Shown here: piece after piece, positions 604-5,278 of the stretch
Numbering within the stretch: the first letter of the stretch is position 1
Layout: each line of letters starts with the position of its first letter
Assembly: GCA_029247405.1 (NCBI GenBank)
Contig: JAQWLH010000204.1
Coordinates: forward strand, 1-42,212
Length of the DNA: 42,212 bases
From: Mariniblastus sp.
GTDB lineage: Bacteria > Planctomycetota > Planctomycetia > Pirellulales > Pirellulaceae
Direction of reading: 5' to 3'
Notes under the pieces: model-generated
Seen by the model: only the letters and a program-made list of their open reading frames with translations
What the model was told of the DNA's origin: nothing
Databases searched by the model: none
Program-made: the position numbers and the translations under genes

Positions 604-1224
604 CTACGCCTCACTCTCGACAGGGTTGGAGATCCAGGTGCCGTTGATCCAGTTTCTCAAAACTTGTTGGCCCCATTGTCCAGAAAGCTCAGGGTGAAAC
701 TGGCAAGCGAGGGTCCGTCCCCGCCAGATACTACTGACAAAGTTTTCACCGTAATTTGTTTGAGCAAATCCCCATCCTTCGGGAGGGTTTTCCAATCGAA
801 ATGAATTGGCGAAATAGGCTTCGCCCGTTTCGTATGGTCCGTCAGATTGTGGGGCAACTTGATTCCAGCCTAGCTGTGGGACGGCGAGGTGGTTGCCAAA
901 CCGTTTGATTTGATGCGGGATGATTCCAAGCCCACGAGCCGATTGCGATTCATCACTTGATTCGCCTAACAACTGCATCCCCAAGCAAATGCACAGCGTC
1001 GGAGAATCAGGATGTCGAAGGCGATTGACGATTGTCTCCCGAAGGTTCAGTCGGTCAATCGATTCGACGGCTGCCGCAAACGCACCCACTCCCGGTAAAA
1101 CGACGTGAGACGCTGACTTAATTTCTTGGGCATCATCGGTGAGTTGCCAAGGTTCTGCAAGTCGATCAAACGCGGCTTGAAGAGAACGGATATTGGCAAC
1201 ACCCGTGTTAATGATTTGGATCAT
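604..1224 (-). CDS. hisH: Imidazole glycerol phosphate synthase, glutaminase subunit HisH
   Basis: Class I glutamine amidotransferase that releases ammonia from glutamine and channels it into the HisF barrel. The 206 residues match the family length. Visible motifs are LPGVGAF (oxyanion loop, about 43-49), the nucleophile Cys80 in CICLGMQLL, PQLGWN (116-121) and the catalytic His177 and Glu179 in CQFHPELSG. The usual YFxHSY segment reads YFANSF, a conservative variation. It lies between the hisCB fusion (52-base gap) and hisF (2-base gap), so it belongs to the his operon. The start is ATG; no strong ribosome-binding site is seen. Confidence 0.96.
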   Translation of the reverse strand: MIQIINTGVANIRSLQAAFDRLAEPWQLTDDAQEIKSASHVVLPGVGAFAAAVESIDRLNLRETIVNRLRHPDSPTLCICLGMQLLGESSDESQSARGLGIIPHQIKRFGNHLAVPQLGWNQVAPQSDGPYETGEAYFANSFRLENPPEGWGFAQTNYGENFVSSIWRGRTLACQFHPELSGQWGQQVLRNWINGTWISNPVESEA

Positions 1225-1276: not shown

Positions 1277-3004
1277 TTACAAAACACCTTTTGTGCTGGG
1301 GACTTCGCCGTCAGTTCGTTCAATTGCTTCTCGAAGAGCTTTCGCACACGATTTAAAAGCAGCCTCGGCCCGATGATGATCATTGGTTCCACGTAATACA
1401 TCGACATGTAAAGAGCACTTCAATGTCATTGCCAGCGAGTGAAAAAAATGGGTGATATTTTCGCATGCCCAGTTTCCGATCATCTCTCGCTCAAGTTGAA
1501 GGTGGATTTCTGGCCAAGGACGACCACTTAAATCAATTACAGTTCGAGCCATCGCTTCATCGAGCGGCGCGTACGCGTAACCAAATCGCTTGATGCCAGT
1601 CCGTTTGCCCAGGGCACCATCGATCGCTGTCCCAAGTGCCAAAGCACAATCCTCGGCGGTATGGTGGTCATCAACGTGGAGGTCACCTGCACATTTGAGT
1701 TTCAAGTCAATTCGTGAGTGGAACGCGAGCGCCGTGAGCATGTGGTCGAGGAATCCGATTCCTGTTTCGATCTCGGTTTGACCGGTGCCGTCCAGATTCA
1801 GCTCGAGGTCAATGTTGGTTTCGTTGGTGGTTCGATTGGCTTTCCAGGTTCGATCGGCCTCTGAGCCCACGGGAACTGGGCCGGATGTCTCGGTTGGTTC
1901 GCTTGCCACATGGCTGTTTTTGAACGCGATGCCGAGGGCAATTTTATGAGGCTCAAATTCTGAATCGGTCACGCGACACAGCGAGTTGGCCAGTTGTAAA
2001 AAGTCGCCCGCTTGGCTCGGGCAAGTGATTCGAACACGGTTGGTCAGATGGGGGTTGCCAGTGAACTTGCGAATGCCGATCCCATCATTTCCCAGCCCGG
2101 CCCAGATTTCATCTGCATTATCAAACTCGGCCAGCACGAAATTGCCTTGGGAAGGAAATGCTTTCCCGCCACATGAATGGACAAGTTCGCTGACCAAGTG
2201 GCGGATGGTTTTGGTCGTTTCAACATTTGTTCTCATCTGCGGCTGGCAGTGAGCCAGAGCTTGGCGTGCTGTTTCCAGCGAAACGGCGCTGACGGGAAAC
2301 GGTCCTGAAGCATTGCGAATGGTTTCGGCAAATTCCGCGTTGGGAGCGATGAGATAACCTACCCGCAACCCCGCCAACCCCCAGGCTTTGGAAAATGTAC
2401 GAACAATCATGATGTTTTCGTCAGCCGCGAGTTCGCTGGTCGATTCTGAATCGGCGAATTCGATGTACGCATTGTCAACTAGCAACTTGGCACCCGCGGC
2501 TTTGGCTACCGTGTTGATTTTTGTGATTGAATCAAGTGAAACCACTCCGCCGGTTGGGTTGTTCGGGGAAGTGATGACAACCAGCGCAGTTTTGTCGTTG
2601 ATTAATCCGATCAAATCGTGCTCGGGAAATTCGCCCTCAAGCCATTCAACGGTGGCCACTGATCCACCGTAGTTGTGGCAATAAATATCCACCATCTCGA
2701 ATGATGGCGAGTGAGAAACGACAGTGTCGCGGGTTTGAGAAAGAGAAACCCGCATGACTCGATCAATAGAGTCGTCTCCTCCTGCGGTCATCACAATCCG
2801 ATTTCCATTGACTCCTATCCAATCCCCGATCAAGGTTTGCAACGCCATGTGGGATGGGTAGCGGGAGACAAATGGCGCTCCGAGGTTCCCAAGGTGGTCG
2901 GCGAGATCACTAATTGCGCACTGAGATTCGTTCCGACTCAGTTGCAATGTGATTGGGGTAGTCGGTTCGGGAGGTTTATAACCGGTTGATTTTTTTGACA
3001 TCAT
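1277..3004 (-). CDS. hisCB: Bifunctional histidinol-phosphate aminotransferase / imidazoleglycerol-phosphate dehydratase (HisC-HisB fusion)
   Basis: A 575-residue fusion of two histidine enzymes. Residues about 15-345 are a fold-type I PLP aminotransferase (HisC): SPNNPTGG (146-153), Asp177 in VDNAYIEF, the PLP lysine Lys206 in TFSKAWGLAG and the following arginine of GLRVGY. After a poorly conserved linker (about 347-385) comes a complete imidazoleglycerol-phosphate dehydratase (HisB, about 386-575) with GIGFLDHML, the metal site HHTAED (447-452) and a second DHHRAE motif. The frame is continuous, with no stop or shift between domains. The reading frame extends to a TTG at 3013, but the ATG pair at 3004/3001 is the more likely start. 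It follows hisG by 37 bases. The order is unlike the known HisB fusion, in which the dehydratase is joined to a HAD phosphatase. Confidence 0.95.
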   Translation of the reverse strand: MMSKKSTGYKPPEPTTPITLQLSRNESQCAISDLADHLGNLGAPFVSRYPSHMALQTLIGDWIGVNGNRIVMTAGGDDSIDRVMRVSLSQTRDTVVSHSPSFEMVDIYCHNYGGSVATVEWLEGEFPEHDLIGLINDKTALVVITSPNNPTGGVVSLDSITKINTVAKAAGAKLLVDNAYIEFADSESTSELAADENIMIVRTFSKAWGLAGLRVGYLIAPNAEFAETIRNASGPFPVSAVSLETARQALAHCQPQMRTNVETTKTIRHLVSELVHSCGGKAFPSQGNFVLAEFDNADEIWAGLGNDGIGIRKFTGNPHLTNRVRITCPSQAGDFLQLANSLCRVTDSEFEPHKIALGIAFKNSHVASEPTETSGPVPVGSEADRTWKANRTTNETNIDLELNLDGTGQTEIETGIGFLDHMLTALAFHSRIDLKLKCAGDLHVDDHHTAEDCALALGTAIDGALGKRTGIKRFGYAYAPLDEAMARTVIDLSGRPWPEIHLQLEREMIGNWACENITHFFHSLAMTLKCSLHVDVLRGTNDHHRAEAAFKSCAKALREAIERTDGEVPSTKGVL

Positions 3005-3041
3005 GGCTTTCAAAAGCTGATTTCAGCGGCATGGTTCAAAT

Positions 3042-3917
3042 CTATGGGATCAATTGCTCTGCCGTGGTGGTGACAATGTCGCAAGCACCAGCAGATTTAA
3101 GTTTGGGAATGATCTCTGCGAGTTCTTTTCGCGGAATCGCCGCTCGTACAGCGAGCCATCCCGAGTCGCTCAGAGGCGAGACGGTTGGGGTTCGCATGGA
3201 AGGAAGGCAAGCAACGACCGCCTCCAGATTTTCATGGGCCACATTGAGATCCATCATCACTCGGCCGCGAGCCTGCAAGACCGCCTGAATCAACATCGTG
3301 AAGTCTTCAATTCGACCTCGAAGAATGTCGTTGTCCATGGCTTCCTTGGAGGCATAAAGCCGGGTCGAAGACGTCATGACTTCATCAATGATTTGTAAGC
3401 CATTGGCTCGAAGCGTTGATCCCGTCGCTGTGTTATCCATGATGCAATCAGCATCTTCCGGAGGAAAGACTTCAGTTGCTCCATAGGTTTGGACGACTTC
3501 TGCCTCAAGTTGGTTGTCAGCAATCCAGCGTTTGGCGAGAGCTGGATACTCGGAGGCGATAATTATTTTTCTGTCAGGTAACTTTCCGTCGTTCAAGATC
3601 TGGTGTGGAGCGGCAACAATCAGGCGAACCGGATTCATTTCCGTGTCCAGCAGTTCGTGGATTTCGGTACCCGTTTCAACGATCCAGTCTTCTCCGGCAA
3701 AGCCAATGTCACGTGAACCGGCGGCCAGCATGCTGATCACGTTTCGCGGTTTGAGAATTTTAGCATCGAAATCGGGCAGCGATATATTGGGGCGATAGCC
3801 TCGCTCTGATTGACCGATTGAAATCCCAGCTGACTTTAATAAATCAACGACTTGATCAAACATCCGGCCTTTGGGGAGCGCCAAGCGAACGATACTGGGG
3901 TCGTGAGAGAGTGACAT
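3042..3917 (-). CDS. hisG: ATP phosphoribosyltransferase HisG, long form
   Basis: First enzyme of histidine synthesis, joining ATP and PRPP; usually feedback-inhibited by histidine. The 291 residues fit the long form, which carries a C-terminal regulatory domain and needs no HisZ. Visible segments are RLALPKGRM at the start, AGEDWIVETG, the PRPP-binding region IMDNTATGSTLRANGL, and the C-terminal part with PSMRTPTVSPL followed by an ACT-like fold (about 217-291). I chose the ATG at 3917 because AGGA lies 8 bases upstream. The frame stays open further upstream to a TTG at 4007, but that extension would run through the attenuator hairpin. It is the first structural gene of the his operon, about 50 bases after the attenuator. 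Confidence 0.96.
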   Translation of the reverse strand: MSLSHDPSIVRLALPKGRMFDQVVDLLKSAGISIGQSERGYRPNISLPDFDAKILKPRNVISMLAAGSRDIGFAGEDWIVETGTEIHELLDTEMNPVRLIVAAPHQILNDGKLPDRKIIIASEYPALAKRWIADNQLEAEVVQTYGATEVFPPEDADCIMDNTATGSTLRANGLQIIDEVMTSSTRLYASKEAMDNDILRGRIEDFTMLIQAVLQARGRVMMDLNVAHENLEAVVACLPSMRTPTVSPLSDSGWLAVRAAIPRKELAEIIPKLKSAGACDIVTTTAEQLIP

Positions 3918-3963
3918 GGAAGTCCTGGTTTTTGTTAAGGTTAGGTCGGGGGAGGGTGAGTCC

Positions 3964-3993
3964 AAAAAAAAACGCTGGCCAAGGTGGCCAGCG
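3964..3993 (-). terminator. his operon attenuator: intrinsic terminator in the leader
   Basis: Read on the minus strand, an 8-bp perfect GC-rich stem CGCTGGCC/GGCCAGCG with a 5-base loop is followed at once by nine T. It sits between the leader peptide stop (4036) and the hisG start (3917), so it would stop transcription before the structural genes. An alternative pairing of GTGGTC (4030-4025) with GGCCAC (3989-3984) would open the terminator stem and could serve as part of an antiterminator. That pairing is my inference. Confidence 0.93.
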
Positions 3994-4035
3994 CTCTGTG
4001 TATGCAATTTACAAGATCAGACTAGACCACAGCCG

Positions 4036-4089
4036 TCATCGGCGAAGATGGTGTGAATGGTGGTCGTGGTGGTTGGTAATCTGATTCAT
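4036..4089 (-). CDS. hisL: his operon leader peptide (histidine-rich, 17 codons)
   Basis: A short reading frame, ATG at 4089 to TGA at 4036, encodes MNQITNHHDHHSHHLRR, with six histidines in an eight-residue run. It lies just downstream of a strong promoter and just upstream of an intrinsic terminator and hisG, which is the layout of a translation-coupled his attenuator. When charged histidyl-tRNA is scarce, a ribosome stalled at the His codons should prevent terminator formation. The ATG falls 7 bases after the last base of the -10 box, so the transcript probably starts at or next to the AUG, and no ribosome-binding site precedes it. It is too short to be found by ordinary gene calling. Confidence 0.92.
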   Translation of the reverse strand: MNQITNHHDHHSHHLRR

Positions 4090-4095
4090 GCCGCA

Positions 4096-4123
4096 ATCAT
4101 AAGTGGTGAAATAAGGATGTCAA
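4096..4123 (-). promoter_or_regulatory. his operon sigma-70-type promoter
   Basis: On the minus strand TTGACA (4123-4118, perfect -35) is followed after 16 bases by TATGAT (4101-4096, 5 of 6 to the -10 consensus). The predicted start point, about 4089, coincides with the ATG of the leader peptide. It lies only 18 bases from the stop of the upstream kinase-like gene on the same strand, so the his operon has its own promoter. Confidence 0.85.
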
Positions 4124-4141
4124 CGGGAAATCTGATAGCCG

Positions 4142-5278
4142 TCAGGCCATTTGAATTGCTTTTGACCACCCATCAATCATGAGATCAATTGTTTGATATC
4201 GCTCACTCCGTCTTTGACGCGTCGAGTGAGTGATTACTTGATTAATCCCTCTAGCCAATTCATCGTTGATATCTTTTGTAATCCTAATCAGGAGTTTTAA
4301 GATCCGCCCGATTGCGTAAATATCAGATCGAACATCAATGTAATGGGCATCATTGTTCCGACTTTCGGGCGAGAGAAATGGATCCCCTGGTGCCAACGGC
4401 TCAAGAAGTTCGAAGTGGTAGCGACTGTCTAATTTGAATCCAAAATCCCCCACAATGATGCTCGACCGATCGTTCGTGATCCAGATGTTGTTTGGGTTTA
4501 AATGTCGGTGCAAAATTCGTTTGGAATGTGCGTGACTGACGGTGTCCAGAAGCTGGTTAAAGAGGGTAATCATCTCTTTGGGATTGAATTGATAGGTATC
4601 GTCTGAAACAGCCGCTTTGGCAATTTGCTTGAGATTAGGGTAATTGCCAATGAAGTCAGTAGAATAATAAACACGGTTGGCATCCCATTCCCCAAAATCG
4701 ACGGGCGTGGAAATGTTGGGGTGCTCAAGCGACTGGGCAGCATGACAATCTGCAAGAAACTGCTCGTTGTGCATCGGTGTGGTCAATTTTGTCGCGAACG
4801 GAATCTTGATATTAAATAAATCATTGGAATCTAATTTTGCCAGAAAAGAGTCACCGAAGTTGCCCTCTCCGATGATGCTAAGGACTTGATATTGGTCCTC
4901 GCCAAATTCTTTTTGCTCGCTGGGAGCGAGTGAAATTTGACTGTTAATTTTCGACATGGCTGTCGAAAATCCTTCCGCAGTGGCTAAATCATCTGAGTTG
5001 CCATCTGTCTCATTAGCGCGAGCGGTCCTAAGGCCCACAGCTAGAGAGCTGGGTTCCATTGCATCGAGTTGACGGATACAGGAATCGCATAACCTCAGAT
5101 GCTCTGAGATCTGCTCAATCTCAAAAGCGTCGCTGATGCGGCCTTCATTAAAAGCTCGCAGCAAATCTATTTGTGGGCAATTCTTGCTCAAACGAAATCT
5201 CTTTTTTTTGGCAGCCAACAGTTCAAAATAAAAAACTCTAGAAGGAATTGCAGGGGACTTTCGGCGGCGAGAATCCAA
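4142..5278 (-). CDS. Zinc-finger/kinase-like protein lacking the catalytic Asp (probable pseudokinase anti-sigma factor)
   Basis: 378 residues. Residues about 33-75 resemble the zinc-binding anti-sigma N-terminus, with His60-x3-Cys64-x2-Cys67. From about 130 a eukaryotic-type Ser/Thr kinase fold follows: glycine loop GEGNFG (137-142), a candidate ATP lysine Lys158, DFG at 278-280, SPE at 303-305 and the subdomain IX Asp319. The catalytic loop reads HRHLNPNN (257-264) where active kinases have HRDLKPxN, so both the catalytic Asp and Lys are replaced (by His and Asn). I infer a pseudokinase that binds rather than phosphorylates. No membrane segment is seen. It follows the ECF sigma factor by 46 bases on the same strand; in Planctomycetes such ECF/kinase pairs are common, and it probably controls that sigma factor. 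Confidence 0.85.
   Translation of the reverse strand: MDSRRRKSPAIPSRVFYFELLAAKKKRFRLSKNCPQIDLLRAFNEGRISDAFEIEQISEHLRLCDSCIRQLDAMEPSSLAVGLRTARANETDGNSDDLATAEGFSTAMSKINSQISLAPSEQKEFGEDQYQVLSIIGEGNFGDSFLAKLDSNDLFNIKIPFATKLTTPMHNEQFLADCHAAQSLEHPNISTPVDFGEWDANRVYYSTDFIGNYPNLKQIAKAAVSDDTYQFNPKEMITLFNQLLDTVSHAHSKRILHRHLNPNNIWITNDRSSIIVGDFGFKLDSRYHFELLEPLAPGDPFLSPESRNNDAHYIDVRSDIYAIGRILKLLIRITKDINDELARGINQVITHSTRQRRSERYQTIDLMIDGWSKAIQMA

Follow-up and report, generated by a model that had tools for sequence, protein, structure and literature searches.

The question raised by this locus is whether the histidine-rich reading frame ahead of hisG in a planctomycete genome is the leader of a his operon attenuator and, if so, how the ribosome gains access to this leader. 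The locus is located on the minus strand of the window, which is the whole stretch of 42,212 nucleotides analysed from contig JAQWLH010000204.1 of Mariniblastus sp. The promoter-like site, the leader and the terminator, as well as their order, conservation and spacing, are seen directly in the sequence. A sigma-70-type promoter, TTGACA-16 nt-TATGAT (4096..4123), extends from TTGACA at 4123 through a 16 nt spacer to TATGAT, which ends at 4096, and matches the consensus at 11 of 12 positions. It is followed by the leader ORF (4036..4089), which encodes MNQITNHHDHHSHHLRR and ends with the stop codon TGA. This ORF consists of 17 codons from the ATG at 4089 to the stop at 4038-4036, and six of eight codons within it are His codons (H7 H8 D H10 H11 S H13 H14). 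No Shine-Dalgarno sequence is seen before the ATG of the window leader. The leader is followed by an intrinsic terminator (3964..3997) with the core CGCTGGCCA-CCT-TGGCCAGCG, the stem of which is placed at 3997-3969 by the terminator scan. The hairpin has a stability of -20.8 kcal/mol and leads into nine T at 3972-3964. The initial annotation had described a near-consensus promoter, a 17-codon leader with six His codons in eight and an intrinsic terminator with nine T, in this order before hisG, and this layout is correct in all of its elements.

The first structural gene is hisG (3042..3917), which encodes a long-form ATP phosphoribosyltransferase with the Pfam HisG and HisG_C domains. Its ATG is separated from the leader stop by 118 nt and from the end of the terminator by 46 nt. 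The second gene (1277..3013) is a fusion of hisC and hisB, coding for an aminotransferase and an imidazoleglycerol-phosphate dehydratase respectively, as identified with Pfam and NCBIfam models. The third gene (604..1224) is a candidate for hisH, the glutamine amidotransferase subunit, and an open-ended ORF that is cut by the contig start (2..601) is a candidate for hisF, the cyclase subunit; both are named from their sequences. All of these genes are encoded on the minus strand. The gene upstream of the promoter lies on the same strand with its stop at 4142, and is presumably kinase-like.

The leader RNA (134 nt) folds with -40.2 kcal/mol, as compared to a mean of -27 kcal/mol (sd 3.3) in 200 shuffles. 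The folds contain two arrangements in addition to the terminator, which is formed by segments 3 and 4. Segment 1, GACCAC (4060..4065), is located inside the His codons, and segment 2, CGGCTGTGGTCTAGTCTGA (4017..4035), directly 3' of the leader stop. GTGGTC (4030-4025) in segment 2 is able to pair either with segment 1 to form hairpin 1:2, or with GGCCAC (3989-3984) in the 5' arm of the terminator to form an antiterminator.

The genus sample consists of 28 genomes, namely 25 that were searched first, the genome of the window included, and three more; the genus is taken as the Mariniblastus, Pirellulaceae and Planctomycetaceae bins by record title. A close HisG (at least 67% identity) is encoded in 18 of the first 25 genomes, an unrelated HisG (about 30% identity) in three, and no HisG in four. 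Among the three further genomes, G430, a single contig of about 6.6 Mb from the same genus, has a close HisG and the other two have an unrelated one. A leader with three to seven His residues precedes hisG in all of the 19 genomes that have the HisG type of the window. The initial annotation had made its attenuator depend on the conservation of the His codons in relatives, and this conservation is found. When the leader is defined strictly as a short ORF with at least four His in 10 residues, it is detected in 16 of the 18 upstream regions of the first genus genomes, as compared to 0.25 of 18 expected from order-1 resampled sequences and none of 18 on the reverse strand. L014 and L016 have only three His, yet the aligned leader is present in both. 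The leader is also present in G430 (L200), which was left out of picture-building, as MKSTAAKFHHHHAHQLR. The in-frame codons of the genus leaders include 94 His codons (CAY; 53 CAT and 41 CAC) versus 14 Gln codons (CAR), and the other two frames contain 6 and 14 CAY. The His content is better kept than the remainder of the peptide, which is what codon sensing would lead one to expect. A chance origin of the His-rich ORF is rejected, because the leaders observed are far above the resampled expectation.

To follow the leader beyond the genus, 392 Planctomycetota genomes (phylum by titles) were searched, and 220 of them, the genome of the window included, gave a HisG match. Apart from this genome, 31 matches are listed at 41% identity or more, from which 29 loci were taken (without G214 and the partial G385); three of these repeat loci from the best-80 set described below. 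The leader is present in 23 of these 29 other Planctomycetota loci with the HisG subfamily of the window, as compared to 0.12 of 29 in resampled sequences and one of 29 on the reverse strand. One more leader, in L130, is counted if three His are allowed. As a control, 40 loci that encode the other HisG type were taken down the list of weaker matches, a non-random choice, and leaders are found in two of them (L145 and L148, from one genus). Among 12 relatives from the same order or genus that have the other HisG type, only L023 matches the leader rule, and this match, a frame of 40 residues, probably belongs to a coding sequence. The difference between 23 of 29 loci with the HisG subfamily of the window and 3 of 52 loci with the other type, L023 included, corresponds to a Fisher p value of 9e-12.

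L145 and L148 belong to another planctomycete genus, and their leader is MTKTLHVFHHPIHHHLRHSPRRGSQVC or alike. An SD-like AGAGG is located before the ATG, and a terminator-like hairpin is also present. As far as these sequence elements indicate, the two loci probably represent a his attenuator that is leadered and arose separately.

The best 80 of 526 HisG relatives were also examined across phyla, which are named by record title, so that bins can be misnamed or mixed. By the strict rule, the leader is present in 26 of 30 Planctomycetota loci (14 of the 30 belong to the genus), in all five of Spirochaetota and in all three of Gemmatimonadota. It is found in 4 of 10 Myxococcota loci, in one of four from Candidatus Sumerlaeota, in one of 15 from Pseudomonadota (L099, which is without upstream sequence, being included in the 15), in neither of two from Bdellovibrionota, and in none of eight rows without a phylum. 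Single Acidobacteriota, Actinomycetota and Bacteroidota bins also have it, and none of the 11 Alphaproteobacteria-titled rows examined does. One of the four Myxococcota cases, L080, is probably due to chance, its His-rich ORF sitting in an apparent coding sequence. In L049, from a Myxococcota bin, a His-rich ORF, MQRTHHHPHHHLQGVSPSKM, is located 614 nt upstream of hisG, which is outside the counting limit. When L099 is dropped, 31 of the 65 non-genus loci with the HisG subfamily of the window have such a leader, the doubtful L080 being counted, and 34 are without it.

A quick HisG tree, which leaves out the duplicates L112, L114 and L116 and the short rows L020 and L099, separates the subfamily of the window from the other type by a long branch. 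Accounting for the leader label takes 21 changes over the 109 rows of this tree, and many deep forks are open, so that co-inheritance, loss and repeated origin are indistinguishable on it. Judged from these sequences, the leader goes with a single HisG subfamily, which several phyla share. That a cassette of leaderless His leader and terminator was inherited or transferred together with this HisG subfamily across six or more phyla (by title), and forms an ancient lineage of his regulation distinct from those of enterobacteria and Firmicutes, is a tentative proposal, which falls a little short of being probable. The initial annotation had treated the attenuator as a matter of Planctomycetes. 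This view is supported in that an attenuator is the favoured reading there, but is too narrow in that the leader of the same HisG subfamily is present in several phyla.

In the alignment of the 18 genus sequences, 97.8% of the terminator cells are paired. Three pairs of the terminator are changed on both sides (2 of 500 shuffles are as high), and its covariation score is reached by none of 500 shuffles. The antiterminator and the 1:2 hairpin are paired in 85.3% and 70.4% of the cells respectively, and neither of them shows covariation above the shuffles in the genus alignment, which is poor in that region. The antiterminator is visible by eye in the cut-transcript folds of 15 of the 18 sequences; the automatic transcript cut is misplaced in L006, L007 and L017. 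These structures were also analysed in a set of 69 leaders across phyla, from which L080 was dropped and to which L014 and L016 were added, with order-1 Markov resampling, which is not an exact shuffle, as the reference. A hairpin of -10 kcal/mol or stronger follows the leader in 65 of 69, with a median of -18.6 kcal/mol versus -5.1 kcal/mol for the resampled sequences. The hairpin is weaker than this in L017, L018, L102 and L117; in L017 and L018, a bulged terminator is present in the folds and was missed by the bulge-free search. At least five U are present in the 12 nt after the hairpin in 53 of 69 leaders, and fewer than five in 16. Pairing between the terminator's 5' arm and the segment that follows the His run has a median of -20.7 kcal/mol versus -14.6 kcal/mol for the resampled sequences, and the signed-rank p value of 5e-13 for this difference is overstated, since the rows are related. 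The antiterminator duplex of the window is no stronger than its resampled counterparts (-14.2 versus -14.1 kcal/mol), and those of L017, L018, L079 and L129 are likewise no better.

The position of the promoter relative to the leader bears on the manner in which the ribosome would reach the leader. In the window, 6 nt separate the -10 box from the ATG. All of the 19 genus leaders have the first T of TTGAC 34-36 nt upstream of their ATG, and in 16 of them the -10 box ends 6-7 nt before the ATG; in L012, L016 and L200, this distance is 8-9 nt by automatic assignment. In a set of 68 distinct leaders (16 from the genus and 52 others, L080 included), an exact TTGAC is present 30-45 nt before the ATG in 52, all at 34-39 nt, as compared to 1.5 of 68 expected (at most 4 in 50 draws). 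A Shine-Dalgarno-like sequence is present in 3 of the 68, as compared to 5.2 expected. The short distance from the -10 box, the lack of a Shine-Dalgarno sequence and the spacing of TTGAC suggest that transcription probably starts at the leader ATG or no more than about 3 nt away from it, such that the RNA is leaderless. The -10-to-start distance mapped in Streptomyces lividans averages 6.3 nt, according to PMC8079986, and its closeness to the 6-7 nt found here is counted in favour of a leaderless start.

The same features bear on the possibility that the his attenuator is carried by a conventional leadered mRNA, which would start further upstream and have a weak or non-canonical ribosome binding site. 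The uniform end of the -10 box in the genus, the narrow range of TTGAC in the larger set and a frequency of Shine-Dalgarno-like sequences below the chance expectation make this arrangement unlikely. It draws some support from the facts that the start site is predicted here from sequence only, that L145 and L148 of the same phylum look leadered with their AGAGG (with the other HisG type), that 16 of the 68 leaders are without an exact TTGAC at this spacing, and that six other TTGAC are located at 25, 48, 51 or 59 nt before the ATG.

The pattern TTGACA-N15-18-TATNAT-N4-8-ATG has a single exact match in the draft genome of the window (4.8 Mb, 84% complete), and this match is the his leader. Thus, a genome-wide habit of leaderless promoters with strict consensus is not supported. 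In the 28 genus genomes, this pattern has 20 matches, 12 of which are the his leader, and the reversed pattern has none. No other attenuator is recognised among the eight non-his matches. At one of them, L184 (G013:C307), a gene, presumably for a Fur-like regulator, may be leaderless from a near-consensus promoter. Three near-consensus promoters with an ATG close behind (L196, L198 and L199) are located on one contig, G008:C596, which is perhaps part of a mobile element.

A his attenuator in a planctomycete, as initially proposed, is the best-supported reading of the locus, with the leader kept throughout the genus genomes with this HisG and the terminator covarying. With high confidence, its sequence features point to ribosome-mediated attenuation of his operon transcription, of a leaderless kind. 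We infer three parts of this reading, namely the start at the AUG, the antiterminator state and the response to histidine, which would operate as follows. RNA polymerase would start at or next to the leader AUG, so that a ribosome would load directly on the bare 5' end of the RNA and trail the polymerase closely. When charged His-tRNA is ample, the ribosome would pass the six His codons to the stop and mask segment 2, such that the terminator (3:4) forms and transcription ends 46 nt ahead of hisG. When His-tRNA is scarce, the ribosome would stall on the His codons and leave segment 2 free to pair with the 5' arm of the terminator (2:3), such that hisG-hisCB-hisH-hisF is transcribed. When the leader is not translated, segments 1 and 2 would pair and the terminator would form. 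This mechanism predicts that the ribosome loaded on the bare 5' AUG has only until the polymerase passes about 126 nt to act.

It is very improbable that the leader RNA acts mainly as a terminated small RNA or as the source of a trans-acting small peptide, as in the rhizobial rnTrpL/peTrpL case, with attenuation being secondary. The leaderless trpL RNA of Sinorhizobium meliloti and its peptide have trans roles according to PMC7298713, and the architecture is alike, but the His content of the leader is conserved more than the rest of the peptide. That the terminator belongs to the transcript of the upstream kinase-like gene and that the His-rich ORF arose by chance can be dismissed almost with certainty, because, even though this gene shares the strand and no second terminator-like site was detected by scanning 3600-4400, this explanation is already contradicted by the conservation of the leader, which all 19 genus genomes with this HisG type and 23 of the 29 other Planctomycetota loci carry, and by the promoter-like site between this gene and the leader.

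The proposed leaderless attenuator was compared with known RNA families and attenuators. No match to Rfam (release 15) at the gathering score is found in the window and 36 other loci (34 with the HisG subfamily of the window and two with the other type), so a T-box, a riboswitch or another listed RNA family is rejected at that threshold for these loci. Below its threshold, the highest-scoring family in the leader is Thr_leader, at 25 bits where 55 are required (E 0.0078). No Pfam or NCBIfam model matches the two leader peptides that are longer than 20 residues. The his attenuator of Escherichia coli and Salmonella (hisL; Rfam family His_leader) is similar in that a short leader with a His run, alternative hairpins and a terminator precede the his operon. 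In contrast, the promoter abuts the AUG here, there is no Shine-Dalgarno sequence, the His codons are interrupted, no Rfam match is obtained, and the leader is found in different phyla with a long-form HisG of one subfamily. For the known attenuator, PMC3896937 describes a leader of 18 residues with seven consecutive His.

Leader mRNAs that begin at the AUG and are part of an attenuator, as predicted here, are described in two other cases, in so far as these sources cover them. The trpL RNA of S. meliloti starts at its ATG (PMC7298713), and leuL, trpL, ilvL, metL and thrL of S. lividans encode leaderless leader peptides (PMC8079986). Unlike the present leader, these leaders sense Trp, branched-chain and other amino acids, and are in different phyla; none of the eight S. 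lividans leaders named in PMC8079986 is for His. Attenuators of his operons are reported for gamma-Proteobacteria and some Firmicutes (PMC9413887). Those of the Firmicutes, namely of the Bacillus cereus group, Eubacteriales and Erysipelotrichales, and the His leaders before hisS and hisZ in bacilli were identified by comparative genomics (PMC9413887, PMC2965389). The Firmicutes attenuators likewise combine a His-rich leader, a terminator and an antiterminator outside Proteobacteria, but belong to other lineages, and the portions of these reports that were consulted do not mention leaderless transcripts, Planctomycetota, Spirochaetota or Gemmatimonadota. Histidine supply also acts on his genes through the histidine T-box riboswitch and the HisR repressor (PMC9413887); unlike in the T-box, the sensing element here would be a reading frame. 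For Actinobacteria, PMC1262725 reports that histidine operons are not preceded by a conserved RNA structure. Two works cited in PMC4833913 may bear on priority, namely a survey from 2010 that compares amino-acid attenuators and a conference paper from 2015 about leader peptides with His in Actinobacteria. No description of a his attenuator in Planctomycetota or of a leaderless his leader is found among the top open-access literature matches listed.

Attenuation of his operons is known, and what appears to be new, as judged from the loci compared here, is its leaderless form in Planctomycetota and further phyla without an Rfam match. This form is a new variant rather than a new kind of regulation, because his attenuators are known in gamma-Proteobacteria and some Firmicutes. 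The leaderless form and the tie to HisG across phyla go beyond the initial annotation. In Planctomycetota, 5' regulatory RNA is poorly known, and the coupling of transcription and translation has been debated. The proposed attenuator would give this phylum a case of amino-acid attenuation in which both sensor and output are defined. It would also add, for several phyla, a leaderless version of the textbook his attenuator, one that Rfam release 15 does not cover in the loci scanned.

The his genes themselves differ within and around the genus. Two unrelated HisG types are present in this one genus, that of the window in 19 of 28 genomes and that with about 30% identity in five (G005, G011, G023, G431 and G432). 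Eight genomes of other genera of the same family are among the matches listed, and all of these matches are weak (HisG E values of 1e-27 to 1e-30), which hints, at the level of sequence similarity, at a replacement of the hisG gene in the genus of the window. By a crude motif check of the loci that reach far enough downstream, the hisC-hisB fusion is also present in L003, L012, L039 and L043, of which L012 and L039 are from the same genome, whereas L048 and L113 encode the hisC and hisB domains in separate frames.
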